Source: Candidatus Sulfotelmatobacter sp. (GTDB taxonomy: Bacteria > Acidobacteriota > Terriglobia > Terriglobales > Acidobacteriaceae). From it: a stretch of 64,000 bases of DNA. Of this stretch, positions 44,570 through 61,009 are shown in pieces. Every line of letters starts with the position of its first letter. Position 1 is the stretch's first letter. Made by a program: the position numbers and the translations under genes. A model generated the notes under the pieces. It saw nothing but the letters and a program-made list of their open reading frames with translations, was not told where the DNA came from and did no database searches. The stretch is taken from positions 1 through 64,000 of the forward strand of contig JASHOH010000031.1 in NCBI GenBank assembly GCA_030041215.1. Direction: 5' to 3'.

Positions 44570-46141
44570 ATGACTGTCACATTGAATAAAGAGATCCCGA
44601 AAACCAAGCATCGAGACGGCGCCATCGTGATGGATGGACATTCTCTGACCATTGAGGACGTTGCCGCCATCGCCCGCCATAGGCAACCCGTGGACCTGCA
44701 CGTCGATGCGATCGACCGCATCAACAAGTGCCGCGACCTTCTCGAACGCAAAATCCGCACTCGTGAAGTCATGTACGGCGTGAACACGGGAATCGGTGAA
44801 CTCTCAGAAGTCGTGCTTACTCCCGAGCAGGTCGAAAAATATCAGAGGTATCTGCTCTATTCGCATGCTGCCGGTTGCGGCGAACCCGCCAGTGAGGAAA
44901 ACGTGCGAGCCGCCATGCTCTCCCGGCTCAACACGCATTGCTGGGGACATTCGGGCATAAGGCTCGAGATCCTTCGCACGCAAGTGGAGATGCTCAACCG
45001 GGGTGTGACGCCGGTGGTTTGCCAGAAGGGATCGGTTGGCGCTTGCGGCGATCTTTCGCCCATGGCGCAGATGGCCATCACTCTCATGGGAGAAGGCGAA
45101 GTCTTCTACAAAGGCCAAAGGCTTCCCGCAAAAGAAGGGATGGCCGCAGCGGGAATACCCACGATTGTTTTCCGCGAGCGCGATGGCCTCGCCGCGATCA
45201 ACGGCTCGAACTTTATCAATGGGATGGGCTGTCTCGAGCTTTACGACGCTGAACGATGGCTAAGAACCCAGGAAATTGCCCTCGCCATGACGCTCGAGGC
45301 TCTCAACGCCAACATGCAAGCCTACGATCCTCGCATCCATTCCGTGCGTGGATATCCCGGCGCACAGGAGTGTGCCGAAAACATCAACCGGCTAACCGAG
45401 GGCTCCGAACTGCTCAAGTTGCCGGGCAAGAAAGTTCAGGATGCGTATTCCTTGCGTTCGAGTCCGCAAGTGATCGGCGCGGCTCGTGACGCGTTTAAGT
45501 GGATTCGTTACATGCTGGAAATCGAACTCAATCACGCGGCCGACAATCCCACATTTTTCCCGGGAGAAGAGCTTGTGCTGACCGGTGCGAACTTCCAGGG
45601 CACGCCCATGGCTTTTGCCCTGGAGTTGCTGGGCATGTCTGTGACCACGGTGGCCGCGCTTTCCGAACGGAGATTGAACCGATTGATGAACCCGCATCTA
45701 TCAATGGGTTTGCCTCCATTTCTGACTAAGGGCGCCGGAATGTTCTCCGGTTTAATGTTGTCGCAATACACAGCAGGAGCACTGGTCTGCGAGAACCGCG
45801 TGCTAAGCCATCCCGCTGCGACCGGGTCCATACCCGCGGCCGCCGATCAGGAAGACTTCGTCTCCATGGGGATGACAACCGCGATCAAGACGAGGCAAAT
45901 CATCGACAACGCTTGGTATGTAATCGCCATCGAGCTGATGGCGGCAGCACAGGCCTTCGATTTCCGTTACCCAGTGAAGCCTTCTCCAGCGAGCCAGGCC
46001 GCCTACGAATTGATTCGTAGCTATGTGAAGAAACTGGATGAAGACAGACCGTTGTTTGACGATATCAATCGCCTCGCGAGCGTTGCGAAAGAAGGAACAG
46101 TGCTGCAAGCAGTGGGCAGAGTGGCGAGCGACCTGAACTAA
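44570..46141 (+). CDS. hutH: histidine ammonia-lyase homologue with Ala-Cys-Gly MIO triad
   Basis: This 523-residue aromatic amino-acid lyase removes ammonia from an amino acid to give an unsaturated acid. Recognisable parts are the Tyr-loop MYGVNTGIG (68-76) and YSHAAG with Ser98-His99; the SH pair is typical of histidine enzymes, not FL or HL. NPTFFPG and QEDFVSMG are also present, the Glu of the latter again being typical of histidine lyases. The MIO cofactor triad, almost always Ala-Ser-Gly, is Ala158-Cys159-Gly160 here (codon TGC at 45044-45046). A Ser-to-Cys mutant of a bacterial histidase is reported to keep activity, so the enzyme may still form MIO. Other hut genes (hutU, hutI) are absent from the window, so the specificity and pathway are open. 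Confidence 0.87.
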   Translation: MTVTLNKEIPKTKHRDGAIVMDGHSLTIEDVAAIARHRQPVDLHVDAIDRINKCRDLLERKIRTREVMYGVNTGIGELSEVVLTPEQVEKYQRYLLYSHAAGCGEPASEENVRAAMLSRLNTHCWGHSGIRLEILRTQVEMLNRGVTPVVCQKGSVGACGDLSPMAQMAITLMGEGEVFYKGQRLPAKEGMAAAGIPTIVFRERDGLAAINGSNFINGMGCLELYDAERWLRTQEIALAMTLEALNANMQAYDPRIHSVRGYPGAQECAENINRLTEGSELLKLPGKKVQDAYSLRSSPQVIGAARDAFKWIRYMLEIELNHAADNPTFFPGEELVLTGANFQGTPMAFALELLGMSVTTVAALSERRLNRLMNPHLSMGLPPFLTKGAGMFSGLMLSQYTAGALVCENRVLSHPAATGSIPAAADQEDFVSMGMTTAIKTRQIIDNAWYVIAIELMAAAQAFDFRYPVKPSPASQAAYELIRSYVKKLDEDRPLFDDINRLASVAKEGTVLQAVGRVASDLN

Positions 46142-46482: not shown

Positions 46483-46692
46483 ATGGACGTGAGACTAACT
46501 TCGGAAGAAGGCGACGTTTTGCTGGAAATCCTGGAGGAACAGGACCGGGACTTGTTGGCAAAAATCTCGCATGCCAAACGAAAAGCCCCCAAAAAGGCAT
46601 TAAGACAGAAAGAGACGTTGCTCGAAAGCATCATCGAGAAGCTCGAAGTGGAGCATACCGAAGAGGAGGAGTTTACCGATCTATGGTGGTAG
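46483..46692 (+). CDS. small acidic coiled-coil protein
   Basis: This 69-residue protein is highly charged and mostly helical (LTSEEGDVLLEILEEQDRDLLAKIS, then KKALRQKETLLESIIEKLEVE). It probably forms a coiled coil and ends in FTDLWW. I know similar small proteins from Acidobacteria but no function. It overlaps the next gene by ten bases, so it is the likely first gene of the operon through 54827. Confidence 0.65.
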   Translation: MDVRLTSEEGDVLLEILEEQDRDLLAKISHAKRKAPKKALRQKETLLESIIEKLEVEHTEEEEFTDLWW

Positions 46693-47273
46693 CGGACCTG
46701 GCTGAAGGCACAAGCACGCGTAATGCGGTTCGGCAACTGTGGCCGGAGATCGATTGGATCCAGGACTTGCAACTGCGTGAGCGAGTGACCGCCACATGGG
46801 CTCTTGCACTTAAGCGCAGCGCATTAAAACCAGACGATCTGAATCGCATTCCCTTCACTTTGCTGGTCGCGAACTGTCCGATCACTTTCATGGAGCATAA
46901 GCGCTGTGTTGTGCACATCGCCCGGTCGAGCGCCCTGGCGATGCAAGAGTTCATGGGACGCGCGCTGCCAATCGACCTCGATGTAGTCATTGCCGGCGCG
47001 ATCCTCGCAGATGTGGGCAAGCTGCTGGAATATGAACTCGGCCCTGACGGCAAAGCGCGGCAGAGCGAGAGAGGAGAAGCTCTGCGCCATCCCTTTACCG
47101 GAGTGGCGCTGGCGCTTGAATGTGGCGTTCCCGATTCCGTCTGTCACATCATCGCCGCCCATGCCGCCGAAGGTGATTTAGTAAAGCGCACGACTGAGGC
47201 GTTTATTGTGCATCATGCTGATTTCATGGCGTTTCAACCGTTCAAGAATCCAAAGAACATCCAGCTCAGGTAG
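46683..47273 (+). CDS. HD-domain-like protein with a disrupted HD pair
   Basis: This 196-residue protein resembles HD phosphohydrolases. It has H72 (EHKRCVVHIAR), a segment where LHDVGK is expected but AGAILADVGKLLEYE is found (Ala109-Asp110), RHPFTG at 135-140, IIAAH at 156-160 and IVHHADF near 176-181. HD enzymes coordinate metal with the His-Asp pair. Without that His it may use the other histidines or act as a binding or scaffolding protein. The start overlaps the upstream small gene by ten bases and the next gene follows 11 bases later. The role in a tricarboxylate operon is unknown. Confidence 0.65.
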   Translation: MVVADLAEGTSTRNAVRQLWPEIDWIQDLQLRERVTATWALALKRSALKPDDLNRIPFTLLVANCPITFMEHKRCVVHIARSSALAMQEFMGRALPIDLDVVIAGAILADVGKLLEYELGPDGKARQSERGEALRHPFTGVALALECGVPDSVCHIIAAHAAEGDLVKRTTEAFIVHHADFMAFQPFKNPKNIQLR

Positions 47274-47284
47274 AGGAGAGAAAA

Positions 47285-48763
47285 GTGGCCACTGCGAATC
47301 CCGCGTTCGAAAGCAAAGAGACCGTCACAGCGACAATGTCACGCTGGGCTGCAAGCCTGCGCTTCGAAGATATTTCTCAGGATGCCGTTTATCAGGCAAA
47401 GCGTTTTCTCCTCGATTCCCTCGGATGCGCTCTTGGCGGCTATCAGCAGCACGATGTGAAAATTGCTCTCGCCGTGTTGGACGAGATGGCAGGGCGAGGC
47501 CACGCGACAGTCATCGGCAGTGGAAAGAAAATTGACCCGGTTTCGGCGACGTTGGCCAATGCGCTGATGATCCGTTGCATGGACTACAACGACATTTATT
47601 GGAAGCAAGATCCCTCGCATCCCTCCGACATTTTTCCAGCGGCGCTGGCGTGCTGTGAACGAGCGAGAAGCGATGGCAAAGAACTGATCGTCGGCCTGGT
47701 GCTTGGCCACGAATTCGAAATGCGTTTTTGTGAAGCCGCTTTTCCCGGCATTCGCGAGCGCGGCTGGCATCACGCCACTCTGACCGCGTTTGTCTCGCCG
47801 ATCGTGGGCGGGCGTGCCCTTCACCTGAGTTGGGAGCAAATTCAACATGCCATCGGCATCTCCGCCAGCCGCCACTGCACGCTGGGTGCGGTCACCGCGG
47901 GCAAGCTCACGATGATGAAAAATACCGTGGACCCGCTGGCTACCCAGAGCGGCGTGCTGGCGGCACTGCTCGCAGAAAAGGGTTACAGCGGGCCGGAGCA
48001 CGTGGTCGATGGCAAGGAGGGCTTGGTTTACTGCTTCGGGCCCGAGTGGAAGTTGAACACTCTTACGGATCGACTAGGCAGTTCGTGGCGCATTACGCAA
48101 TGCGGCATGAAAGGCTTTCCGACAGAGGCGCTGACGCACACGCCGATCTCGGCGGTACTGGACCTGGTCAAGACAAATGACCTGAAGCCAGAGCAGGTCG
48201 AGAAGATTCAGGTTCGCTCACTGGCCAGGGCGGCGGACATCCTTTCAGATCCCAGTAAGTATGACCCGCGCACCAAAGAAACCGCGGACCACTCGCTGCC
48301 CTATGTGATCGCCGCTGCGTTGGTCGACCGCCAGGTCACGCCGAAGCAGTTCACGATGGAAAAGATCATGGACCCCGAGGTGCGGGCGCAACTGAAAAAA
48401 GTCGAGGTCGTCCCAGATCCCGAGATTGAGAAAGTTTTTCCCTCGCTACAACGCGCGATCGTAAGCATTACCACGGTGGACGGGCGCACTTTCAGCAAAC
48501 AACTCGACTTCCCCAAGGGCGACCCCCGCAATCCGCTTACTGATCAGGAAGTGGAAGAAAAATTCTCCGCTCTTGCCGAAGGCGTTTTGTCGAAGGGCAC
48601 ACAGAAAAAAGTGAAGGATGCGGTCTGGAATTTGGAAACGTTGGACTCGGTCAGCAGCCTGATGGCTTTGTTGAAATCGAACGTTCGGCGCAGAAAGACG
48701 TCCACTGCCAAAATCAAGATTGGCAAAGAACCTGAGCAGCATGAAGCTGCACTCGCGAGTTAG
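47285..48763 (+). CDS. MmgE/PrpD family dehydratase
   Basis: This 492-residue protein belongs to the MmgE/PrpD family. Family signatures include FLLDSLGCALGGYQQHDVKIAL, MDYNDIYWKQDPSHPSDIFPAALA and WHHATLTAFVSP near the active site, with a C-terminal lid domain. The family includes 2-methylcitrate dehydratase (PrpD), cis-aconitate decarboxylase and epimerases. Here, next to aconitase-, isocitrate-dehydrogenase- and citrate-lyase-like genes, dehydration of a citrate-like compound is likeliest. The start is GTG at 47285 after AGAGGAGAGAAAA. It is two bases from the next gene. Confidence 0.85.
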   Translation: MATANPAFESKETVTATMSRWAASLRFEDISQDAVYQAKRFLLDSLGCALGGYQQHDVKIALAVLDEMAGRGHATVIGSGKKIDPVSATLANALMIRCMDYNDIYWKQDPSHPSDIFPAALACCERARSDGKELIVGLVLGHEFEMRFCEAAFPGIRERGWHHATLTAFVSPIVGGRALHLSWEQIQHAIGISASRHCTLGAVTAGKLTMMKNTVDPLATQSGVLAALLAEKGYSGPEHVVDGKEGLVYCFGPEWKLNTLTDRLGSSWRITQCGMKGFPTEALTHTPISAVLDLVKTNDLKPEQVEKIQVRSLARAADILSDPSKYDPRTKETADHSLPYVIAAALVDRQVTPKQFTMEKIMDPEVRAQLKKVEVVPDPEIEKVFPSLQRAIVSITTVDGRTFSKQLDFPKGDPRNPLTDQEVEEKFSALAEGVLSKGTQKKVKDAVWNLETLDSVSSLMALLKSNVRRRKTSTAKIKIGKEPEQHEAALAS

Positions 48764-48765
48764 CT

Positions 48766-50745
48766 ATGGGCCAAACCATCGTTGAGAAAATCGCGCAAAC
48801 TCATCTCGCCGAGGGTCCACGCCGGCCACTGCGCGCAGGAGATTTTGTCTCCATCCGCCCCGATCATGTAATGACCCACGACAACACCTCGGCGGTGATG
48901 AGCAAGTTCAAGGCGATCGGCGCGCAAAAGATTCATGCGCCTGCACAACTCGTCTTCGCGCTTGACCACGACATTCAGAACCAGGAAGAAGCAAACCAGA
49001 AAAAATATCGTGCAATTGAAGCGTTCGCTAAAGAGCACGGCATCGATTTCTATCCCGCCGGCACCGGCATTGGCCACCAGATCATGGTGGAGCGGGGTTA
49101 CGTCTTACCGGGATCATTCGTGGTCGCCTCGGATTCTCATTCCAACATGTATGGCGCGCTCGGAGCAGTGGGAACCCCGATCGTGCGCACAGATGCGGCG
49201 GCGATCTGGGCGACGGGCGTGTTCTGGTGGCAGATTCCCCGGTCAGTGCAAGTCGTGCTCAAGGGAAGGCTACCGGAGGACGCGACCGGCAAGGACGTGA
49301 TTATCACGCTCTGCGGTCTCTACAACCACGACGAAGTATTGAATGCGGCGATCGAGTTCAGCGGCCCGGGCATCAGCAGCCTTTCGATGGATGCTCGCTT
49401 TACGGTTTCCAACATGAGCACCGAGTGGGGACCGCTGGTCGCCTGGTTCCCGGTGGATACAGCCGCGATCGACTATCTGTACGGTGTTTTACAACGTTTG
49501 AAGCGACTGGGAATAAATCGGTTCGGCGAGGCCGACCTCGACGCGTGGGCGCAAAACCCGCTGCAGCCGGACGCTGACGCTGCTTATTCCGCGCGTATCG
49601 AGTTCGACCTCAGCCAGGTCTCGCCGCATGTCTCGGGTCCGGACACAGTGCAGGTGATGGACTCGCTCGCTGAAATGCAGCAGAAGAAGATCGCAATCCA
49701 GAAGGCATATCTTGTTTCGTGTGTCAATTCGCGCGTGGAAGATCTGGCTGCCGCAGCAAGGGTTCTCACCGGCAAGCGGGTCGCGCCCACCGTCAAGTTC
49801 TATGTGGGAGCGGCGAGCAGTTGGGTACAGGAAGAGGCCGAACGAAAGAACATCTGGCAGACCTTGCTTGACGCCGGTGTGATCCCCCTGCCGCCGAGCT
49901 GCGGGCCGTGCATTGGCCTAGGTACGGGATTGCTCGAAAAGGGCGAGGTCGGCATTTCCGCCACAAATCGCAACTTCAAAGGACGCATGGGATCGCGCGA
50001 TGCCCATTGCTATCTAGCCAGCCCGGAGGTGGTGGCCGCCTCCGCGATCGCCGGATATATCCACGCCACGAACGGTGCTTTCACTCGTGTGCCTCCGCGC
50101 GAGTATCGGGAATTTAAAGCGGCCGTGCCCGCCGCGGAAAAAGTGGGCATCCTGGCCGGCTTCCCCGAGTGCGTGCACGGACGACTGGTATTCATCCCGC
50201 AGGACAATCTGAACACCGATGCGATCTACGGGAAAGACTACACCTATCGCGACGACATGACCCCCAAGATGATGGCCGAGGTCGTGATGCAGAACTACGA
50301 CCTACAGTTCGCGTCGCGGTGCAATGCGGGCGATGTCATTGTGGGCGGTTTCAACTTCGGCACGGGTTCCAGCCGCGAACAAGCGGTTACTTGTTTGAAG
50401 GCGAAAGGCATTCCCCTTGTCATAGCAGCCAGCTTTTCGCAGACCTACCTGCGCAACGCGTACAACAACGGATTCCTGTGCATCGAGGTACCGGAGCTGA
50501 TTGCTCGACTGCGCCAGCAGTTTGGTACGGAAATTCAAGCGAAAGAGAAAACCATCATTCCGGGCGATGAGATCGACGTCGACTTCACGTCGAGCACAAT
50601 TCAGTGGCGGGGCGAGCGGTTCAATTTCCCCGCGTTAGGTAGCGTGCCCCAATCCCTGATCATAGCCGGCGGGATCGAGAATCTCGTCGCGAAGCGGTTG
50701 GGACTAAATGAAGATTGCGTGCGCCGAGACGCCGGCAATATCTGA
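48766..50745 (+). CDS. homoaconitase-like hydro-lyase (aconitase superfamily, LeuC-LeuD fused)
   Basis: This 659-residue protein contains both the large catalytic and the small swivel domains. The catalytic part is strikingly like fungal homoaconitase Lys4: DHDIQNQEEANQKKYRAIE, FYPAGTGIGHQIMVERGYV, ASDSHSNMYGALGAVGTPIV, RTDAAAIWATGVFWWQIP. The iron-sulfur ligands lie in SCVNSR and SCGPCIGLG. The swivel domain from about residue 525 has GGFNFGTGSSREQAV. It should isomerise a citrate-type to an isocitrate-type acid through an aconitate, with a 4Fe-4S cluster. The Lys4 likeness suggests a longer or substituted tricarboxylate (homocitrate, methylcitrate), but plain aconitase activity is not excluded. 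Confidence 0.85.
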   Translation: MGQTIVEKIAQTHLAEGPRRPLRAGDFVSIRPDHVMTHDNTSAVMSKFKAIGAQKIHAPAQLVFALDHDIQNQEEANQKKYRAIEAFAKEHGIDFYPAGTGIGHQIMVERGYVLPGSFVVASDSHSNMYGALGAVGTPIVRTDAAAIWATGVFWWQIPRSVQVVLKGRLPEDATGKDVIITLCGLYNHDEVLNAAIEFSGPGISSLSMDARFTVSNMSTEWGPLVAWFPVDTAAIDYLYGVLQRLKRLGINRFGEADLDAWAQNPLQPDADAAYSARIEFDLSQVSPHVSGPDTVQVMDSLAEMQQKKIAIQKAYLVSCVNSRVEDLAAAARVLTGKRVAPTVKFYVGAASSWVQEEAERKNIWQTLLDAGVIPLPPSCGPCIGLGTGLLEKGEVGISATNRNFKGRMGSRDAHCYLASPEVVAASAIAGYIHATNGAFTRVPPREYREFKAAVPAAEKVGILAGFPECVHGRLVFIPQDNLNTDAIYGKDYTYRDDMTPKMMAEVVMQNYDLQFASRCNAGDVIVGGFNFGTGSSREQAVTCLKAKGIPLVIAASFSQTYLRNAYNNGFLCIEVPELIARLRQQFGTEIQAKEKTIIPGDEIDVDFTSSTIQWRGERFNFPALGSVPQSLIIAGGIENLVAKRLGLNEDCVRRDAGNI

Positions 50746-50759
50746 CGGGAGAAAATCGT

Positions 50760-51983
50760 ATGGCGAAATACACAGTTGTCACCATGCCCGGAGATGGCAT
50801 TGGCAAGCAAGTAATGCCGGAAGCGCTGAGGCTGCTAAAGGCTGTGGGATTCGACGCGGAGTACTTTCAGGCCGATATCGGCTGGGAATGCTGGCGCAAC
50901 GAAGGCAATGCTCTGCCCGAGCTTACCATTGAGCTCCTTGCGAGTTATAAACTGGGCCTATTCGGCGCAATCACCTCAAAACCGAAGAAAGAAGCGGAAG
51001 CCGAACTGAAGCCGGCCCTGCGCGGCAAGGGCTACTCGTACTTCAGCCCCATCGTCGCCATGCGCCAGAGATTCAATCTCGACACCTGCATCCGACCCTG
51101 CATTTCTTTTCCCGGCAATCCTCTGAATTTCATTCGCAAGAAAACCGGTGGCGGATTCGAAGAACCATTCGTCAATGTCGTGATCTTCCGCCAGAACACC
51201 GAGGGGCTATATGCCGGCTTGGAGTGGACGAATCCTCCAGACCAGGTGCGCAGCGCGCTCGCGACCCACCCGAAGTTCGAGCCTTTTGCCGCCATACCGG
51301 GCGCCGATCTTGCAATTTCAGTACGGATCATCACGCGCAAAGCTGCTCACAAGATAGCGAAAGCGGCCTTCGAATGGGCGAGAAAGTTCGGCTACAAGTC
51401 GGTGACCATTTGCGAGAAACCCAACGTGCTGCGCGAGACTTCAGGAATGATGGAAGAACAAGCCAAGGCAGTCGCCAAGGAGTACCCCGAAATCGCGTTG
51501 TGGTCGACCAACATCGATGCCCAAATGATGTGGCTGACGAAGAATCCCGAGGAATACGGCGTGATTCTGGCTTCCAACCTCTTCGGAGATGTGATCTCTG
51601 ATGCCTTTGGGGGGCTGGTAGGCGGACTGGGCTTTGCGGCCTCGGGCAACATTGGCGACGATGTCGCCGTATTCGAGCCGACTCATGGATCAGCGCCGAA
51701 GTATGCCGAACTCGACCCGCCGATCGTGAACCCCATCGCCATGTTTCTTGCCGCCGCGATGCTGCTCGACCACGTGGGAGAAATCGACAAAGCAAAGCTC
51801 ATCCGCGATGCGATTGCGCACGTCGTACGCGAGGGCAAAGTCCGCACGTATGACATGTTGCGCATTCCCGGCGGACGCGATGTCATCGCCAAGGGCGCGG
51901 CCAGCACCTCACAGATGACCGATGCAGTTCTGGCGAGCTTAGGCAAAGTAGCAGAACCGGAACTGGAAGAAATTTTAAGGTAA
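50760..51983 (+). CDS. isocitrate/isopropylmalate/homoisocitrate dehydrogenase family
   Basis: This 407-residue beta-decarboxylating dehydrogenase contains the early MPGDGIGKQVMPEAL, the family segment FRQNTEGLYAGLEW, the catalytic ITRKAAHKIAKAA, and the metal-site segment ASNLFGDVISDAFGGLVGGLGFAASGNIGDD with FEPTHGSAPKYA. It oxidises and decarboxylates a 2-hydroxy-3-carboxy acid to a 2-oxoacid with NAD(P)+. I chose the ATG at 50760; an earlier start at 50715 lies within the end of the upstream gene. The family member, and whether it is NAD- or NADP-linked, could not be decided. It lies immediately before the CitD-CitE gene with no gap. Confidence 0.88.
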   Translation: MAKYTVVTMPGDGIGKQVMPEALRLLKAVGFDAEYFQADIGWECWRNEGNALPELTIELLASYKLGLFGAITSKPKKEAEAELKPALRGKGYSYFSPIVAMRQRFNLDTCIRPCISFPGNPLNFIRKKTGGGFEEPFVNVVIFRQNTEGLYAGLEWTNPPDQVRSALATHPKFEPFAAIPGADLAISVRIITRKAAHKIAKAAFEWARKFGYKSVTICEKPNVLRETSGMMEEQAKAVAKEYPEIALWSTNIDAQMMWLTKNPEEYGVILASNLFGDVISDAFGGLVGGLGFAASGNIGDDVAVFEPTHGSAPKYAELDPPIVNPIAMFLAAAMLLDHVGEIDKAKLIRDAIAHVVREGKVRTYDMLRIPGGRDVIAKGAASTSQMTDAVLASLGKVAEPELEEILR

Positions 51984-53219
51984 ATGATGATGAGCACTGC
52001 ATCGATAAGGCCGAGGCTGCAACCTGCCGAAGTCGGCAATTGGGGCCCTGACACGCGCTCCGATCTGCACGTGCGCATCGAGCCGCGTGAACGTGATGGC
52101 ATAGAGATCGCACTCGAGTCGCGCGTCGAGCCCTACTACGGCGAATCGATTCTGACTGAGGCCCGGCAAGTGCTGGAACAATTGCACGTCCAGCGCGCCT
52201 ACGTTGCCATTCACGATGAAGGCGCATTGCCTTTTGCGATCTCGGCGCGCCTTGAAGCGGCTGTAAAACGCGCAGGCCTCGGCAGCGGTTATCGAGTGCT
52301 CCCGGAGAAAATCGTTGTCCCGCCCGCGTCGGCTCGCGATCGAATGCGCCGCTCGCGTCTTTATATTCCCGGCAACGAGCCCAAGTATTTCATCAATGCC
52401 GGTCTGCGCAACCCGGATGGAATCATTCTCGATCTCGAGGATTCCGTCCATCCCCACGAAAAGGATGCTGCGCGCCTGCTGGTGCGCAACGCGCTCCGGG
52501 CAGTCGACTTCGGCACTTGCGAGCGTATGGTGCGCATTAACCAGTTGCCGTTGGGACTCGCGGATCTAGAGGAGATTGTTCCTGAATTCCCAGATTTAGT
52601 GCTCCTGCCAAAAACTGAGCGGCCGGAGCAAGTCATGCAGGTTGCTGATCGCATTGAGCAAATCAAGGGCAGACACGGCATCGATCGCTCGATTTGGCTT
52701 ATGCCAATTCTCGAGTCAGCGCTGGGAATCGAGAACGCCTATGCGATCGCTACTGCCAGCCCGGATATCGTAGCTATGACAATCGGTTTAGAGGACTACA
52801 CTGCCGATCTTGGCGTAGTCAAGACCGCCAAAGGCGACGAGACACTCTTCGCGCGGCAACGCCTGGTAAACGCTGCCCGCGCTGCCGGAATCCAGCCAAT
52901 CGACTCGGTTTACGGTGACGTCGCCGATCTCGAGGGTCTGAGGCAGTGGGGGATGAATTCACGCGCCATGGGATTTGAAGGCATGGGCTGCATCCATCCG
53001 CTGCAAATTGCCGTGATCCACGAAGCCTTCGCGCCCACGGCGACAGAAATCGAGAAGGCGCTGAAGATCGTAGCTGCATTCGACGAGGCCCAACAGAAAA
53101 GCCTGAGTGTTGTGAGCCTGGGATCGAAGATGATCGATCCGCCCGTCGTGCAACGAGCCTTGAAGTTGGTAAGCCGCGCCAGAGCAATGGGCATACTGCA
53201 ACAAAGTGGGATGAGCTGA
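51984..53219 (+). CDS. citrate lyase acyl-carrier and beta subunits fused (CitD-CitE)
   Basis: This 411-residue protein joins two parts. Residues about 18-105 resemble CitD, the citrate lyase acyl carrier (RIEPRERDGIEIALESRVEP, GESILTEARQVLEQLHV, GALPFAISARLEAA). From about residue 116 it is CitE/HpcH-like (RSRLYIPGNEPKYFINAGL, DGIILDLEDSVHPHEKDAAR, LMPILESALGIENAYAIA, GFEGMGCIHPLQI). CitE cleaves citryl-ACP to acetyl-ACP and oxaloacetate. In E. coli CitD the prosthetic group sits on Ser14. Here the aligned position is Arg25 and a Ser follows at 26, so attachment, if it occurs, is shifted by one residue. In known systems the two are separate genes. The ATG starts right after the previous stop. 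Confidence 0.8.
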   Translation: MMMSTASIRPRLQPAEVGNWGPDTRSDLHVRIEPRERDGIEIALESRVEPYYGESILTEARQVLEQLHVQRAYVAIHDEGALPFAISARLEAAVKRAGLGSGYRVLPEKIVVPPASARDRMRRSRLYIPGNEPKYFINAGLRNPDGIILDLEDSVHPHEKDAARLLVRNALRAVDFGTCERMVRINQLPLGLADLEEIVPEFPDLVLLPKTERPEQVMQVADRIEQIKGRHGIDRSIWLMPILESALGIENAYAIATASPDIVAMTIGLEDYTADLGVVKTAKGDETLFARQRLVNAARAAGIQPIDSVYGDVADLEGLRQWGMNSRAMGFEGMGCIHPLQIAVIHEAFAPTATEIEKALKIVAAFDEAQQKSLSVVSLGSKMIDPPVVQRALKLVSRARAMGILQQSGMS

Positions 53220-53222
53220 GCT

Positions 53223-54827
53223 ATGCCAACGCAGGAAATAGAGTACAAGCTTCAGCTGGAAGAAAATGCAGCGGGGCGTCTCGTACCCACGGTAGTGAAC
53301 GGGCGCGTGCAAACCCCCTACTTAGGAGTCGGCCAGTACAAACCAGCGGGACGCAAGGCAGCGCCGCCAATTCGCACGGCAGCCGACTATCCGGAGAATG
53401 GCGACAAGCGCGTTCCCGACCTCGAAACTGCTCTGCGTTGCTGCGGTCTGCGCGACGGCATGGTCATTTCCAACCATCATCATCTGCGTGATGGCGACAG
53501 CGTCGCGTTGATGGCGCTGCAAGCGGCCGCACGGTTGGGCGTCAAAGACCTGATGTGGTTTCCCAGCGCGTCGTTCCCCTCGCAAGTGGGCGCAATCGAA
53601 CTGATGGAGAACGGCACCATCCATCACGTCGAAGGCAGCATGAACGGCCCTCTTGGCGATTACTGCACTCAAGGAAAGATGCGAGGCATGGGCGTGCTGC
53701 GTTCGCATGGAGGCCGCTGGCAAGCGGTGCAGGATGGTGAAGTACACATCGACGTTGCCGTAATCGCCGCACCCACAGCCGATGCCTTTGGCAACGCCGA
53801 TGGTTCGCACGGCAAATCGGCGTGCGGTTCTCTCGGATTCGCACTGGCAGATTCCATCTACGCAGACCATGTTGTTGTGGTCACCGATAATCTGGTCCCA
53901 TTCCCCTGCGTTCCGTGGCAAATCCAGGGCAACAACGTCGACTACGTGGTGCAGGTGGAATCGATTGGCGACCCCGCCAAAATCGTCTCCGGCACTACAC
54001 AGATCACCCGCTCGCCAGACCGTCTGCTCATCGCAGAATATGTAGCGAAGTTCATGCGCGCGGCAGGCATCATGCGCGAAGGATTTTCTTTTCAGGCGGG
54101 ATCGGGTGGAATCGCGCTGGCCTTCGTCGATTATCTCAAGCGCATGATGAAGGAAGCCGGCATCAAAGCCCGATTTGTGCGTGGCGGCTCAACTAAATAC
54201 TTAGTCGAGCTTCTGCAGGAAGGTCTGACCGATTATATTCTCGATGGCCAAACTTTCGATCTCGACGCCGTAAAATCCATCGCGAGCGATGCGCACCACA
54301 TCGCAACTTCGCCTTTTACTTCCTACAACTACCACGGCAAAGGAAATTTCGCCTCAATGGTCGACGCAGTCGTACTCGGCGCAACCGAAGTCGATGTGAA
54401 CTTCAATGGAAATGTAGTCACCCATTCCGATGGAAGGTTGCTGCATGGCATCGGCGGCTGGCAGAACTGTCTTGCCGCCGGTTGCACCATCCTTGCGGTA
54501 CCGTCATTCCGTGATCGCATTCCAGTCATTGTCGACCAGGTCACAACCCTCACCGGACCCGGTGAACTGATTGACGTCGTTGTAACCGAGCGCGGCATAG
54601 CTATCAACCCCAGGCGGCAGGACTTGACCGATGCCGTCAAAGGATCGGGCTTGCCGATTCGACCCATTCACGACATCAAGACCGAAGTGGAGCGCATCTG
54701 TGGTGGGAAACCCGCTCGGCCTAAACCGGGCGACCGGCCTGTGGCTATCGTGAAGTGGGTAGATGGCACCGTGCTCGACACCATCTGGAAGGTCTCCAAT
54801 TCCACCCTCGCCAACCCCGCTCTGTAG
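53223..54827 (+). CDS. citF: citrate lyase alpha subunit-like CoA/ACP transferase
   Basis: This 534-residue protein resembles CitF, which swaps the acetyl group on the acyl carrier for citrate (citrate:acetyl-ACP transferase). Features are SNHHHLRDGD and the GFSFQAGSGGIALAF segment (about residues 292-306), ILDGQTFDLDAVKSI, and VVVTERGIAINPRR near the C-terminus. E. coli CitF is about 510 residues. The gene starts three bases after the CitD-CitE gene and is last in the operon. CitC, CitX and CitG, needed to make and acetylate the carrier, are not in the window and must be encoded elsewhere or be dispensable. Confidence 0.87.
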   Translation: MPTQEIEYKLQLEENAAGRLVPTVVNGRVQTPYLGVGQYKPAGRKAAPPIRTAADYPENGDKRVPDLETALRCCGLRDGMVISNHHHLRDGDSVALMALQAAARLGVKDLMWFPSASFPSQVGAIELMENGTIHHVEGSMNGPLGDYCTQGKMRGMGVLRSHGGRWQAVQDGEVHIDVAVIAAPTADAFGNADGSHGKSACGSLGFALADSIYADHVVVVTDNLVPFPCVPWQIQGNNVDYVVQVESIGDPAKIVSGTTQITRSPDRLLIAEYVAKFMRAAGIMREGFSFQAGSGGIALAFVDYLKRMMKEAGIKARFVRGGSTKYLVELLQEGLTDYILDGQTFDLDAVKSIASDAHHIATSPFTSYNYHGKGNFASMVDAVVLGATEVDVNFNGNVVTHSDGRLLHGIGGWQNCLAAGCTILAVPSFRDRIPVIVDQVTTLTGPGELIDVVVTERGIAINPRRQDLTDAVKGSGLPIRPIHDIKTEVERICGGKPARPKPGDRPVAIVKWVDGTVLDTIWKVSNSTLANPAL

Positions 54828-55462: not shown

Positions 55463-58400
55463 ATGAAACTGGACGTTCACTTCCCTATTCTGGCTTTGCT
55501 CGGTAAAACCTTCGTTCGACCAAACACGAAAGCTTTTTCCCGGTCAGTGCTTTGGGCTCTTCTGGCGTTTTGCGCCGGTTCTGCCTTGCTGAGCGCCCAG
55601 AACGTCGTTCTGACCGGTTCTCTCGGCGGCAGGATTACCGATGAGAGTGGGGCAATCGTGCCCGGCGCATCGGTGATTGTGCGCAATCTCGCGACTGGTG
55701 TGGAACAGTCGGTCGTCACCAATCACGCGGGCTTATACACCTTAGCAGCTCTCATGCCGGGCACGTATTCGGTCACAGCAAAATCCAAGGGCTTTCGTGA
55801 TGTGCAAGTGGTGGAGCGTGTCCTCGTCGGAAACAATACATCGCAGGATATCAAGCTGCGAGTGGGGACAAGCGCCGACACGGTGGAAGTGACCGGGACC
55901 ACTCCACTGCTGCGGCCAACGGAATCTTCCGCCAGTACGGTATTGGAGCGGTCACTTATCGATGACCTGCCGCTCAACGGACGAAAATACACTGACTTCA
56001 TGATCCTCACGCCGAACACCAGCTATGACGGCGACACCGGGCTGGTGAGTATCGCCGGGCAGCAAGGCGGAGAAGATTCGGGATACGCTAACGGAAACGG
56101 GTCTACCTATTTCACCGTGGATGGCAGCAACGCCACCAACAACTACTTCTCCGATATCATTGGCCGCAATCGCATCCCCTATTTGTTTGGAGAAGATTCG
56201 ATCCAGGAGTTCCAGGTTACGGTGAGTCCGTATTCGGCCATTTACGGGGGTGGCGCTGGATTCGTGAACTCGGTGACGAGGTCGGGCAGCAATGCGTTCC
56301 ACGGCAGCGTGTTCTACTACAATCGCAACTCCGCTTTCAGTGCTAATGATCAACTGGACGAAAAGGCCGGCAATCCCAAGCCAGACGATTCTTTGCAGCA
56401 ATTTGGCGTGCGGGTCGGCGGTCCGATCACGCGGAACCATTTATGGTTCTTTGTCGATTATGAACAGCAGCTTCGCAACTTCCCGATCTCGGTCATCAAC
56501 TCGGCTTTGTCCCCGAATCCAGCGAATCTGGCGAACTTGTTTAGTGGCACCGGCGGTTTCGGCATTCCGGCTGGAACCCCGCTACCCGCCCCAACGGGAC
56601 CGTTGCCCGTACCAGGCGCCGACACTGCCGCCGACGTTTCCGCCGGCCCGAGCGATCCGCTCTATGCCACGTACTTGCAGCAAGTTTCGAATACGATTAA
56701 CGCGCTGAACTCCAACCTCGGAGTCAAATCCAGATCGGCCAACGATTGGGTGATTACGCCCCGGCTGGATTATCAGGCCACCAACCGCGACAGCCTGTTC
56801 CTCAGCCTCAATATCAACCGTTTCAACTCCCCCGGCGGGGTCATTCTCGACCCAACCGTCGGTAACTACGGAACGCAATCGCTGGCCAACGCTTACGTCC
56901 GTACCGAACAGGCTACTTTGGGATGGACGCACACTTTTTCTGCCAACCTGCTGAACGAATTTCACGCAAGCACGTCGCAAGATAATGAAATTGCGACGCC
57001 AACCGGGCTGGCTCCGAATACTCCGACCATCGTTCTCGACAGTCCTTCCGCGTTCATCATGGGAAACAACGCGTTTTCTGTGGGAAGAGTTTTTGAGAGG
57101 CAGTATTCACTGTCCGATCGTATTGACTTTGTGGTCGGTAAGCACACATTGCAATTTGGTTTCGATTTCACCCGCACCTGGGACGCGGACACTGACGATG
57201 GCGGGGCCGACCCAAACGAGGCTATCGATTTCGGTTCGCCGCTCGGTTTATATGAATTTTCGAATCTGGAAAACCTTGCGCTTGGCATATACGATGAAGG
57301 GTTCAGTCAGGCGTTCGGGAATCCTACTTTTGGTTTTGCCTATCCCTACTACGGTTTCTACGTACAGGATACTTATCGCGCACTGCCGCACCTGACCCTG
57401 GAATTGGGCTTGCGGGAAGATTTTCAGGTCTATCCTCAGCCGCAGGAAAATACGGCATTCCCGCTCACGGGACAATATCCGAATCAGTTTGCTCGTTTCG
57501 CGCCGCGCCTCGGATTCGCCTGGCAGCCCGTGGAGAAGACAGTGGTGCGGGGCGGATTCGGCATGTTCTACACAAACATGAACGGCCTGAACTACCGCAA
57601 CGCCGTTATCTCGAACGGGTTGGAGTCGCAGCAGTACTCGCTCAGCATCGGTTTCAACCCCAGTGCCCTGCCCAATCAGCAAGTGCCGACGTTCCCGAGT
57701 ATTCTCTCGGCGAATTCTACACCGCTCGTGGCACCGGATATTTCACTGGTTTCACCGCACTTCCGAGCGCCTTACATCTTGCAGGCTAGCTTGCAGATCC
57801 AGCGTGAGATTGGGGAAAACACAACCGTGGCCATCGGCACTATGTTCAACCACGGTGTGCACATTATTTCGGGCAGCGCTTATGACCTGAACTTGCCTCC
57901 GCTGACGGGTACAACCACGTATATCGTTTGCCCTCCGGCAACGACCGTTGTCCCTGGATCCTTCGCCCCGCCCTGCACCGGACCGAGCTACACCCTGCCC
58001 AACATGGATGCCGGTATACTCGCTGCGGGAGAAGGCGTCAATTATCCCAATCTCGGCGAGATCAATGAACTGATCAGCCCAGCGCAGAATTACTACAATT
58101 CTTTCTTTGCGCAGCTGCAGCGACGCATGACACGCGGGCTTTCACTGCAGGCGGCTTACACTTTCGCCAAGAGCATCATGCTCGATGGCATGGATTTCAA
58201 CAATCAGTACGATTTCAGCAACACCCATGCGCCCTCGCTGCTCGATCAGCGCCACAAGATCACCCTTGCCGCCGTATATCAGCCGCGACTGGAAAGGTTC
58301 GCTTCTTCGGGCACAAGCCGCGGCGTGCTTGAGGGGTGGACGCTGAGCAGTGTGATGGAGTTTTCTTCCGGCCGTCCTTATGCCGCACTGCTGGCCCCAG

Positions 58401-58879
58401 CCTGCACCAGCGTGAGTGGCGTTCTCGATTTCAGCGATTGCACTGGCGGCGACTTCAATTTGAACGACACGGCCTTCAACCAGGATACAGCCAATACGGC
58501 TGGCGGCATCAATGGTGCGGGGCCGACGCCTGGCATCGGTCTGAATTCTTTCTACGGCCCTTGGCTGGAAAGAATCGACCTTGGCCTGGCCAAGAGCATT
58601 CCCATCAGAGAAGGCAAGGATCTTCAACTGCAAGTGGAAGCCTTCAATCTCTTCAACCATCCCAACTATTACGTGCAGAACGGCGACGGCATCAACCAGC
58701 TTCAATATAACCCGATCGGAACCCAGCAAGGACAGTATCCCTGTGGCGATGGCGTCTCGCTTACCCAAACCTGCTTCCTGGTGCCCAACTCGGGTCCGGG
58801 CAATTTCGGCACGCTGCAGGAAATCAGTCCGAATGGACTGCCGCGCGCTTTGCAGTTCTCAGCAAGATTCACTTTCTGA
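55463..58879 (+). CDS. TonB-dependent receptor, Oar-like
   Basis: This 1138-residue outer-membrane protein has an N-terminal signal-like region (about residues 28-46). A carboxypeptidase-regulatory-like beta-sandwich follows at about 50-130 ([37 protein letters not shown]). Next comes a plug region with [21 protein letters not shown], then a large beta-barrel ending in LQFSARFTF with a terminal Phe. This is the Oar/TonB architecture greatly expanded in Acidobacteria and probably used for uptake or binding of large ligands. The ligand is unknown. The gene ends 23 bases before a CopRS-like two-component pair and has cop-box-like sites upstream, so control by that pair is likely. Confidence 0.9.
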
Positions 58880-58902: not shown

Positions 58903-59577
58903 ATGAAAATTCTGGTCATCGAAGACGAATCCAAGACCGCCAGGTTCCTGAAGAAGGGACTTAGCGAAGCGGGTTTTGTCGTCGACGTAGCCAGCGACGG
59001 GCTGGAAGGCCTGCACCTGGCGCAGGAAGTCGATTTCGATCTTCTGATTCTCGACGTGATGCTTCCCGGGATTGATGGCTGGGAGGTTCTGACCCGTCTG
59101 CGCCAAGCCAGCCAGCGGACACCAGTATTGTTTCTGACTGCCCGGGATGCTGTGCACGAGCGCGTGCGAGGGTTCGAACTCGGAGCCGACGATTACCTCG
59201 TGAAGCCGTTCGCCTTCTCTGAATTACTCGCGCGTGTTCGCTCCCTGCTGCGTCGGGTCCCGCCCCGCCCACAGGAAACCATCCGCATGGCAGACTTGGA
59301 GATTGATCTGTTGCGACACCGTGCCACCCGTGCCGGTCACCGGCTGGATTTGACAACTAAAGAATTTCTTCTCTTGTCGCTCTTGGCGCGGCGCGCAGGA
59401 GAAGTGCTGTCGCGAACTCTGATTGCCGAAGCAGTTTGGGACATGAATTTCGATAGCGACACCAATGTTGTCGATGTCAACGTCCGAAGATTGCGTAGCA
59501 AAGTGGACGAACCTTTTCCCCTCAAGTTGATCCATACCGTCCGGGGCGCCGGCTATGTCCTGGAATGTGAGCAATAA
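58903..59577 (+). CDS. OmpR-family response regulator (CusR/CopR-like)
   Basis: This 224-residue regulator has a receiver domain with acidic residues E7-D8-E9, phospho-acceptor Asp51 (LILDVMLPG) and the conserved Lys in VKPFAF. A winged-helix DNA-binding domain follows, ending in [17 protein letters not shown] and [14 protein letters not shown]. The recognition-helix sequence is very like those of CusR and CopR/PcoR, which sense copper through their partner kinases and bind cop boxes. Matching sites occur at 54936 and 61007. The gene overlaps the kinase gene by 23 bases. The signal is inferred, not shown; silver or zinc are possible too. Confidence 0.92.
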
Positions 59578-61009
59578 CCCCGCCCCGTGGTGGAGAACCC
59601 TGGCCTTTCGGCTGACGGCCGGGTACGCGCTGGCTGGTTTGTGCCTGGTATTCCTGGCTACGGCCAGTCTTTATCTAGTGCTGCGCACGGAATTGGAAAA
59701 AAGCACCGACCTGTTCCTCGTCGATAAGCTGCACGTCGTCCGAACTCTTTTGCGGGAGCGCCCACAGGACTGGGACGGGCTGAGAGAGGAAATTGAGCTG
59801 GAATCAGCCGCCCGCCGATATCAGCAATTCTATATTCGGCTGCTTGACGAACATAACGCGCCAGTGTTGGCAACGCCGGGCATGGCCGAGCAATTAGATC
59901 TGTCGCGACTCGCGAGCCAAACTCAGAGCCATCCTACTCGTGCCTTTTCGATGAGGGGAAGGCACAAGCAATCCTTTCGTGTAACCACGGCGCCAGCCGA
60001 GGTCGGCTCACCTTCCACTTCAACTGACACAATTGAAATCGCCATCGACGTCTCGCAGCAAGAAGCACTATTGGCGCGCTACCGGCATTGGTTCTGGGCA
60101 ATTCTTCTGGGAACCCTCGTGATCTTCCCGCTCGTCGGATATCAAATCGCACGTCACGGTATTCGCCCGGTGGAAGAGATTGCCACAACCGCTCGCCACA
60201 TCAGTTCCAAGAATCTGCGCGAACGCATCCTGCCGGAGGGCTATCCCTTCGAACTCGCCTCCTTGGCCCGCACCTTCAACGAAATGCTCGACCGCCTCGA
60301 AGAGTCCTTCGAGCGGATCTCCAGGTTCTCTGCCGATATTGCGCACGACCTGCGCACCCCGGTGAATAACATTCGCGGCGAAGCCGAAGTGGCCTTGGCC
60401 CGCGCCCGCACGGTCGATGAATACCGCGATGTACTTGGATCCTGTCTGGAAGAAGCGGTGCGCCTGTCTGAGCTCATCAGCGATCTTTTGTTCTTAGCTC
60501 GCGCAGAGAGCCCGCTGACCCAGTTGCGCCGCGAACCCGTGGATGTCGCCGAGTTGCTGGACGGTGTGCGCGAATACTACGAAGGCTCAGCTCAGGATGG
60601 AGGCATCTCCCTCACCACCGCTGTCGATTCCCAGCCAGTCATTGCCGAGCTCGACCGCAACCTGGTGCAAAGGGCAGTCGGCAATCTGGTCTCGAATGCT
60701 GTCGCGCATACCCCTGTAGGAGGATCGATCGTGCTCGGAACGGCATTGGCAACCGCCGCTGAAGGATCCACCGTCCGCATCGAGGTCTCCGATACGGGCG
60801 AAGGCATTCCGGCCGATGCGCTGCCCAAGGTCTTCGACCGTTTCTACCGTGTGGATACGTCGCGTTCCAAAGCTTCCGGCGGAACAGGGTTGGGTCTGGC
60901 GATCGTGCAGAGCATCATGGTACTTCACGGCGGCAATGTGGAAATCGCCAGCCAAGTGGGGCAAGGCACCCGCGTCACCCTTCGCCTTCCTGTTGCGGCC
61001 GCAAGATGA
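59555..61009 (+). CDS. sensor histidine kinase (CusS-like)
   Basis: This 484-residue inner-membrane kinase has two membrane helices (about residues 17-43 and 169-190) flanking a periplasmic sensor domain of roughly 125 residues. A HAMP linker ([11 protein letters not shown]...) leads to the phospho-acceptor helix [19 protein letters not shown] and the ATPase domain with N-box [31 protein letters not shown] and [13 protein letters not shown]. This matches the heavy-metal sensor kinase type. The periplasmic domain has few Cys, His or Met residues, so metal binding cannot be read off directly. The start ATG at 59555 lies within the regulator gene; a GTG at 59567 is possible. Confidence 0.9.

Follow-up and report, generated by a model that had tools for sequence, protein, structure and literature searches.

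We suggest that a gene run at positions 46483-54827 of a 64,000-nucleotide stretch of contig JASHOH010000031.1 of Candidatus Sulfotelmatobacter sp. (the window) encodes a homocitrate module, which would interconvert 2-oxoadipate plus CO2 with 2-oxoglutarate plus acetate and would usually run in the direction of breakdown. We give this reading about an even chance of being right. The genes encode, in order, an HD-fold protein, an MmgE/PrpD-family protein, a fused homoaconitase of the fungal Lys4 family, a beta-decarboxylating dehydrogenase, a fusion of the citrate lyase subunits CitD and CitE (CitDE), and a CitF-family subunit. We infer all substrates and the direction of the module from the gene content, family membership and conservation of the operon, from the exchange of its hydratase pair between lineages, and from the linkage of saccharopine enzymes to it in some lineages.

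In the proposed pathway, the dehydrogenase would reductively carboxylate 2-oxoadipate to homoisocitrate (or catalyse the reverse), the Lys4-type homoaconitase would interconvert homoisocitrate and homoaconitate, and the PrpD-family protein would interconvert homoaconitate and homocitrate, which CitF and CitDE would cleave to acetate and 2-oxoglutarate by way of acyl-carrier intermediates. The usual flow would lead from lysine through saccharopine, 2-aminoadipate and 2-oxoadipate to 2-oxoglutarate and acetate, i.e., the aminoadipate pathway reversed, and it would return the 2-oxoglutarate spent on saccharopine formation.

Conservation of the gene set

CitDE was searched for in 297 genomes of the phylum Acidobacteriota, and a genome was counted as a carrier if its best place, picked by hand, reached at least 50% identity. 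Some match to CitDE (E <= 0.001) is found in 92 of the 297 genomes, and the fused type at the carrier threshold in 37, a count that includes the window's genome and several fragments at contig ends. The rows closest to the window on the CitDE tree are metagenome-assembled genomes (MAGs) titled Terriglobia and Sulfotelmatobacter. Forty regions of the phylum were annotated with a codon-usage gene caller. Besides the window, nine of them have the complete order HD protein, PrpD, homoaconitase, dehydrogenase, CitDE and CitF, and the remaining regions are either broken off at contig ends or differently laid out. Because the same order recurs in nine regions, the gene cluster is not a chance arrangement. 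A sequence-only reading of the window had singled out this gene set as unusual, and its neighbourhood proves to be conserved both within the phylum and in other phyla.

The spread beyond the phylum was estimated by scanning 84,980 species genomes with an alignment of CitDE, which gave at least 584 confirmed relatives. The best 80 loci were analysed; nearly all come from MAGs, and their phyla are taken from titles. The titles name Gemmatimonadota, Planctomycetota, Bacteroidota, Chlorobi/Ignavibacteria, Cloacimonadota, WOR-3, Eisenbacteria, Krumholzibacteria, Chloroflexi, KSB1, Marinimicrobia, Deltaproteobacteria and others, which amounts to more than ten phyla besides Acidobacteriota. Counted by tblastn, CitF lies near CitDE in 74 of the 80 loci, the dehydrogenase in 33 and the HD protein in 30; the codon-usage caller nearly agrees (73, 32 and 29, respectively, with none of the parts in 38). 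Eleven loci have the dehydrogenase or the HD protein without the hydratases.

Hydratases, dehydrogenase, lyase and the link to lysine

The homoaconitase scores 724.9 bits against TIGR00139 (cut-off 529.9), a match that spans the whole protein with both subunit domains. Two distant orthologs score 776 and 844 bits, also above the cut-off, and all 25 orthologs that were scanned match the model at E <= 1e-50. The other enzymes of the operon are, as far as family scores indicate, relatives rather than members of the textbook enzymes, because they score under the cut-offs of the named enzymes. The PrpD-family protein matches only the Pfam superfamily MmgE/PrpD and falls below the curated PrpD models (99.2 of 950, 84.7 of 575 and 57.1 of 458 bits). 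Alignments comprised 25 of 28 long homoaconitase orthologs and 20 of 28 PrpD orthologs.

The homoaconitase and the PrpD-family protein are not the only hydratases found with this operon. In seven of the 40 phylum regions (genomes G032, G002, G058, G070, G045, G081 and G091; type B), both are replaced by another pair, namely Acn1, an aconitase-family large plus small part that is mostly fused, and a LeuC/LeuD-like (HacAB-like) pair. The best models for these (two of each were scanned) are those of the aconitase/3-isopropylmalate dehydratase and homoaconitate hydratase families, not of the aconitase of the tricarboxylic acid (TCA) cycle. Both pairs are found together with a recurrent core, made up of the HD protein, the dehydrogenase, CitDE and CitF. 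The same dehydrogenase stands just upstream in two of the seven type B genomes, and in three it lies elsewhere in the genome with 75-79% identity to a type-B copy.

The two pairs were then counted by tblastn among the best 80 loci. PrpD occurs together with the Lys4-type enzyme in 15 loci and Acn1 with the HacAB-like pair in eight, and partial pairs, some of them on cut contigs, account for a few more (PrpD only in three, Lys4-type only in three, Acn1 only in two and HacAB-like only in one). A mixture of the two pairs was found in none of the 80 loci, and PrpD is absent wherever Acn1 or HacAB-like parts stand (11 of the 32 loci that have any hydratase). In a tree built from 112 CitDE sequences, the hydratase pair switches type at least three times, two of the switches being forced by well supported branches; with shuffled labels there are about 14 switches. 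Because the pair type is exchanged on the tree and the pairs are never mixed, the two look like functional equivalents. A single aconitase is enough for the isomerisation of citrate, so the retention of two hydratases favours homocitrate over citrate as the substrate. The homoaconitases of yeast and Aspergillus are reported to interconvert only homoaconitate and homoisocitrate, while another aconitase converts homocitrate to homoaconitate (PMC3556520). Seven Bacteroidota loci (L093, L116, L118, L124, L126, L131 and L137) have the dehydrogenase and the HD protein but no hydratase by CitDE, and all seven genomes carry two aconitase-family frames of ~600 amino acids together on one other contig; these frames are assigned by family and length only, and one is broken in G303.

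For the dehydrogenase, the best models are those of the methanogen homoisocitrate dehydrogenases AksF2 and AksF (268 and 255 bits), compared with 228 bits for isocitrate dehydrogenase, and the ranking is the same in a type-B ortholog. The cut-offs of the isocitrate dehydrogenase models are not reached (228 of 510 bits for PRK08997 and 184 of 432 for mito_nad_idh). At least 97% of 44 orthologs have the motif SPIV, in which Ile stands at the Asn of SxNV. In isocitrate dehydrogenases, the SxN motif contacts the gamma-carboxylate of the substrate; the two with solved structures that were aligned read SVNV and SINV, and the Thermus homoisocitrate dehydrogenase reads GAIR.

The family nearest to CitDE and CitF is citrate lyase. 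Bacterial citrate lyase consists of CitD, CitE and CitF with the accessory proteins CitC, CitX and CitG; the operon shares with it CitE, CitF and the CitD-family acyl carrier domain, but its CitD is fused to CitE, and there are further differences. Both proteins reach the Pfam gathering scores and lie under the curated cut-offs (citE 261.5 of 443.4 bits and citF 479 of 501.45). CitG is present in all three phylum genomes that have canonical separate citrate lyase subunits, whereas none was found in the 24 of the 37 phylum carriers that were tested, nor in the non-carrier G084. CitC scores 212-224 bits in the three canonical genomes. No CitC was found in the window genome, and among the 24 carriers six have partial matches of at most 28.6 bits, four of which exceed the low cut-off of 20.9. 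When the CitD domain is compared with three canonical CitD proteins, an Arg (Lys in two further sequences) stands at what we take, from Klebsiella, to be the position of the prosthetic-group serine. The residue that follows this Arg is Ser in 91 of the 93 sequences that fit an RxD pattern, out of 101 examined; of the eight CitDE sequences that do not fit, six have Ser there by eye and two lack their start. The absence of CitG from the carriers tested, the lack of a clear CitC and the Arg at the presumed serine position together indicate that CitDE/CitF is not an ordinary citrate lyase. Either the prosthetic group would be attached one residue further on and made by other proteins, or a different carrier would be used.

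The link to lysine comes from genes that adjoin the operon in some lineages. In Cloacimonadota, a lysine-ketoglutarate reductase gene directly precedes CitDE in all three loci, and a saccharopine dehydrogenase gene precedes the reductase in two of the three. The reductase of locus L099 scores 265 bits to human AASS and 67 bits to Lys1, and the other two copies are 58 and 65% identical to it. The contig of one Cloacimonadota locus, L134, holds only CitDE and CitF of the module. This linkage of saccharopine enzymes points to lysine. The pair of reductase and saccharopine dehydrogenase also lies on the CitF contig in two Acidobacteriota genomes, G161 and G185, at distances of ~17 and ~7 kb from CitF. 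With a hand-set threshold of 175 bits and a list made by hand (58 genomes), 14 of the 37 carriers within the phylum have the reductase, compared with 44 of the 260 non-carriers (Fisher p 0.006, without correction for kinship). Among carrier genomes of other groups, 27 of 40 have the reductase, the query's own genome included. Ten variable neighbours of the operon were also considered as leads (SIS domain, peptidase M28, glycosyl transferase, FTCD and others); they differ from locus to locus, and the sole lead among them was an AlaDh_PNT_N protein that resembles lysine-ketoglutarate reductase. A protein of 756-757 amino acids follows the reductase/saccharopine dehydrogenase pair, directly or after a few genes, in two Acidobacteriota loci (L182:11033-13300 and L183:1146-3416), and the L182 copy, which alone was scanned, matches ADP-forming acetate-CoA ligase models.

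The operon and its surroundings

All seven open reading frames (ORFs) of 46483-54827 are on the forward strand, with successive spacings of -10, 11, 2, 14, 0 and 3 bases (Table 1), and the tight same-strand run described by the sequence-only reading is thereby confirmed. Its list of enzymes (PrpD, homoaconitase, dehydrogenase, CitD-CitE and CitF) is likewise correct by family searches; it had left unnamed the HD protein, which is found repeatedly with these genes.

Table 1. Features of the operon and neighbouring genes in the window
Feature	Position	Strand	Basis	Proposed role
Histidine-ammonia-lyase family gene	44570-46141	+	hutH 544 bits, cut-off 539.15; upstream
69-aa ORF	46483-46692	+	no family found in family search; overlaps HD gene by 10 bases
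HD-fold protein (HDIG domain)	46683-47273	+	TIGR00277 31.9 bits, cut-off 27.6; without Pfam match
MmgE/PrpD-family hydratase	47285-48763	+	Pfam and curated-model search	proposed homocitrate dehydratase
Fused homoaconitase, fungal Lys4 family	48766-50745	+	TIGR00139; large and small subunit fused	proposed homoaconitate hydratase
Beta-decarboxylating dehydrogenase, isocitrate/isopropylmalate dehydrogenase family	50760-51983	+	best model AksF2	proposed homoisocitrate dehydrogenase
CitD-CitE fusion (CitDE)	51984-53219	+		proposed homocitryl lyase subunit that includes an acyl carrier domain
CitF-family acyl transferase subunit	53223-54827	+	family search
Outer membrane protein, TonB-dependent/carboxypeptidase-regulatory type	55463-58879		ORF reading only; downstream
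Response regulator and histidine kinase pair	58903-61009		ORF reading only; downstream

BLAST found no counterpart of the 69-amino-acid ORF in those related loci that were examined, and the ORF is therefore doubtful as a member of the operon. The HD protein is kept in both hydratase architectures and repeatedly accompanies the dehydrogenase and the lyase. In copies of the window type, the HD histidine is replaced by Ala (ILADVGK in the window), whereas the Asp is invariant, as are several His residues; the orthologs as called start ~11 codons later than the window gene. Its structural model (pLDDT, the predicted local distance difference test, 90.8) has a generic HD fold with YhaM (9h3f, E 3e-4) as the best PDB match, and since the PDB matches are generic, no function follows from the fold despite the good model. 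Perhaps the HD protein is an accessory that helps to mature or renew the lyase.

No counterpart of the hutH-like gene upstream is labelled in related loci of the phylum. Close relatives of the window carry additional small ORFs of 84-160 amino acids between operon genes (L032:6559-7136 and L075:9486-9965), and L032 has two such ORFs between the homoaconitase and the dehydrogenase. In a Gemmatimonadota MAG (L130:12788-17754), the operon is followed by genes for a GltD-like protein, an acetate-kinase-family protein (66 bits) and a thiamine pyrophosphate-dependent POR-type oxidoreductase (608 + 210 amino acids). Bacteroidota such as L131 and L137 have the lactate-racemase cofactor genes larB/C/E nearby.

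Direction, rival readings and meaning

The breakdown direction is favoured on modest grounds, because the L099 reductase is of the AASS type, because a lyase-type condensation with free acetate is energetically unfavourable at the concentrations found in cells, and because the type B genome G002 has a synthase-like protein of its own, so that a lyase acting as synthase would be superfluous there. The same three points speak against the converse reading, in which the module runs forward for the synthesis of lysine or 2-aminoadipate, with the lyase replacing homocitrate synthase and the saccharopine enzymes finishing lysine where present. We consider this reading rather unlikely, but there is evidence for it. 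Except for the synthase, every enzyme of the aminoadipate pathway as far as 2-oxoadipate has a relative here, and both saccharopine enzymes, the dehydrogenase and lysine-ketoglutarate reductase, could operate in the opposite direction, as they do in fungi. Moreover, no HMGL-family protein was found in eight of the 24 carriers tested, which are draft genomes, so that these eight would have no classical homocitrate synthase, a situation that counts for the homocitrate module in general and, as regards direction, would suit homocitrate synthesis by the lyase. The argument from G002 is itself weak. The synthase-like protein there (LysS-like, 310 bits, cut-off 413.55) lies in a cluster with LysX, LysY/ArgC and LysZ-like genes, which also holds argininosuccinate synthase and may serve arginine too. 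A second HacAB-like set in G002, which adjoins a dehydrogenase above the isopropylmalate dehydrogenase cut-off, may be for leucine, and it is for this reason that the argument is weak; the operon hydratases there could be for synthesis. LysW-type lysine synthesis was considered as a general partner of the operon and rejected, LysX scoring above the cut-off in just two of 28 genomes (G002 and G032). The window genome has five HMGL-family matches, of which the two examined further are below all curated cut-offs. The general scheme of the sequence-only reading, in which a 2-oxoacid plus CO2 is interconverted with a substituted citrate and this with an acyl unit plus a second 2-oxoacid, fits and is here specified as 2-oxoadipate, homocitrate and 2-oxoglutarate; the absence of a synthase, which that reading envisaged, may or may not hold for the genome.

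Several further observations weigh against the homocitrate breakdown module. No clear reductase was found in the window genome or the other carriers of its family, nor in any of the seven type-B genomes of Acidobacteriota, negatives in the phylum being either no match or fragments at E 1e-4; therefore lysine would not be the sole feeder by that route. Among the 40 carrier genomes of other groups, 13 lack the reductase and seven of the 27 matches are weak (30-33% identity). The ten proteins next to the Acidobacteriota reductase include no aminoadipate-semialdehyde dehydrogenase or transaminase; among them are MoeB, MutL, regulators, TrkH, an ADP-forming acyl-CoA ligase and three without a family. 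Thirty-seven of the best 80 loci have no other part near CitDE besides a possible CitF, and 11 of these are on contigs of <8 kb, but many have flanks of 10 kb. Two loci that are otherwise complete, L081 and L083, have no PrpD beside the Lys4-type enzyme. The PrpD protein itself is remote from characterised members (<=99 bits) and could have another acid as its substrate, and the dehydrogenase falls short of the homoisocitrate dehydrogenase cut-offs (268 of 540 bits for AksF2 and 255 of 500 for AksF).

Some of the contrary evidence suits a citrate route, in which 2-oxoglutarate plus CO2 would be converted through isocitrate and citrate to oxaloacetate plus acetate, as a lyase-based reductive branch or in the use of glutamate, by duplicated enzymes. 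Citrate lyase is, as noted, the nearest known family of CitDE and CitF, and among solved proteins the dehydrogenase is closest in sequence to a putative NAD-isocitrate dehydrogenase (199 bits, compared with 194 for the Thermus homoisocitrate dehydrogenase). Four carriers (G081, G045, G032 and G118) were found to have no citrate-synthase-family protein. In G299, G307 and G320, the homoaconitase-like pair comprises the only aconitase-family proteins seen and may serve citrate also. We nevertheless regard the citrate route as unlikely, given that a pair of hydratases is retained, and exchanged as a unit, where one enzyme would do, that the homoaconitase falls into its family, that the isocitrate-type SxNV motif is lost, and that many carriers have other aconitase- and isocitrate-dehydrogenase-family genes. 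The window genome is among them: it has three further aconitase-family matches, one of them in a frame of 1017 residues, an NAD-isocitrate dehydrogenase above the curated cut-off and three citrate-synthase-family proteins. The possibility raised in the sequence-only reading, that these are ordinary TCA-cycle genes with a standard citrate lyase, is made unlikely by these extra genes, by the lack of CitG and of a clear CitC, and by the family scores. A 737-amino-acid aconitase-family protein of the window genome (G000 contig C212, L160:1989-4202) matches from about residue 275 and stays below curated cut-offs.

A different substituted citrate, such as methylcitrate or a longer homologue, with PrpD in its usual role, is in our view quite improbable. 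It would accord with the family membership of PrpD and with the resemblance of the dehydrogenase to AksF, whose representatives in methanogens accept a series of homologues as substrates. It would also accord with some Bacteroidota loci (L093, L116, L118, L123, L126 and L142, one representative of each gene scanned), where methylmalonyl-CoA epimerase and Na+-pumping decarboxylase genes lie upstream of CitDE. Together with a DASS transporter gene that is near CitDE in some Bacteroidota, these neighbours may hint at other acids or at fermentation in general, and the transporter and decarboxylase genes would agree with the citrate route as well. Against methylcitrate stands the tertiary hydroxyl of 2-methylisocitrate, which this type of dehydrogenase does not oxidise; the absence of PrpD with the alternative pair and the saccharopine-enzyme linkage also argue against the substituted citrates. 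The homocitrate module run towards breakdown is the reading that we retain.

The homocitrate module would have parallels in several known systems. It shares with the first half of the alpha-aminoadipate pathway of fungi and Thermus a Lys4-family homoaconitase, the use of two hydratases and a homoisocitrate-dehydrogenase-like enzyme, but CitDE/CitF takes the place of homocitrate synthase and PrpD that of aconitase, an HD protein is added, and the module probably runs in reverse. With the 2-methylcitrate cycle (PrpC, PrpD, AcnB/AcnD and PrpB) it has in common a PrpD-family dehydratase and an aconitase-family hydratase, but it adds the dehydrogenase and the CitDEF-type lyase, and PrpD is dispensed with in the alternative pair. 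Lysine is broken down via 2-oxoadipate by the glutaryl-CoA route. In the HglS route of lysine breakdown, 2-oxoadipate is reported to be converted to 2-hydroxyglutarate (PMC7286885). The intermediate is the same in the proposed module, but here it would be carboxylated and split to 2-oxoglutarate and acetate rather than decarboxylated. In the literature searched, which lay outside most subscription journals and all bioRxiv preprints, we found no paper on a 'homocitrate lyase' and, judging by titles and the openings of abstracts, no description of this gene set.

It is possible, as a tentative extension, that these genes represent a widespread and hitherto undescribed form of lysine breakdown, in which the aminoadipate pathway is reversed, homocitrate is split by a lyase that matures without CitG or CitC, either hydratase pair serves, and the HD protein perhaps helps. 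If the homocitrate reading is correct, carbon metabolism would gain a homocitrate lyase, a route that fixes CO2 on the way from 2-oxoadipate to 2-oxoglutarate, and a citrate-lyase-type enzyme that dispenses with the known cofactor genes. The operon would also include a possible bacterial relative of fungal Lys4. Such a module would account for hundreds of genes that resemble those of citrate lyase, aconitase and isocitrate dehydrogenase, and would extend to Acidobacteriota, Bacteroidota, Planctomycetota, Gemmatimonadota, Cloacimonadota, Ignavibacteria and other groups that are mostly known from metagenome-assembled genomes.

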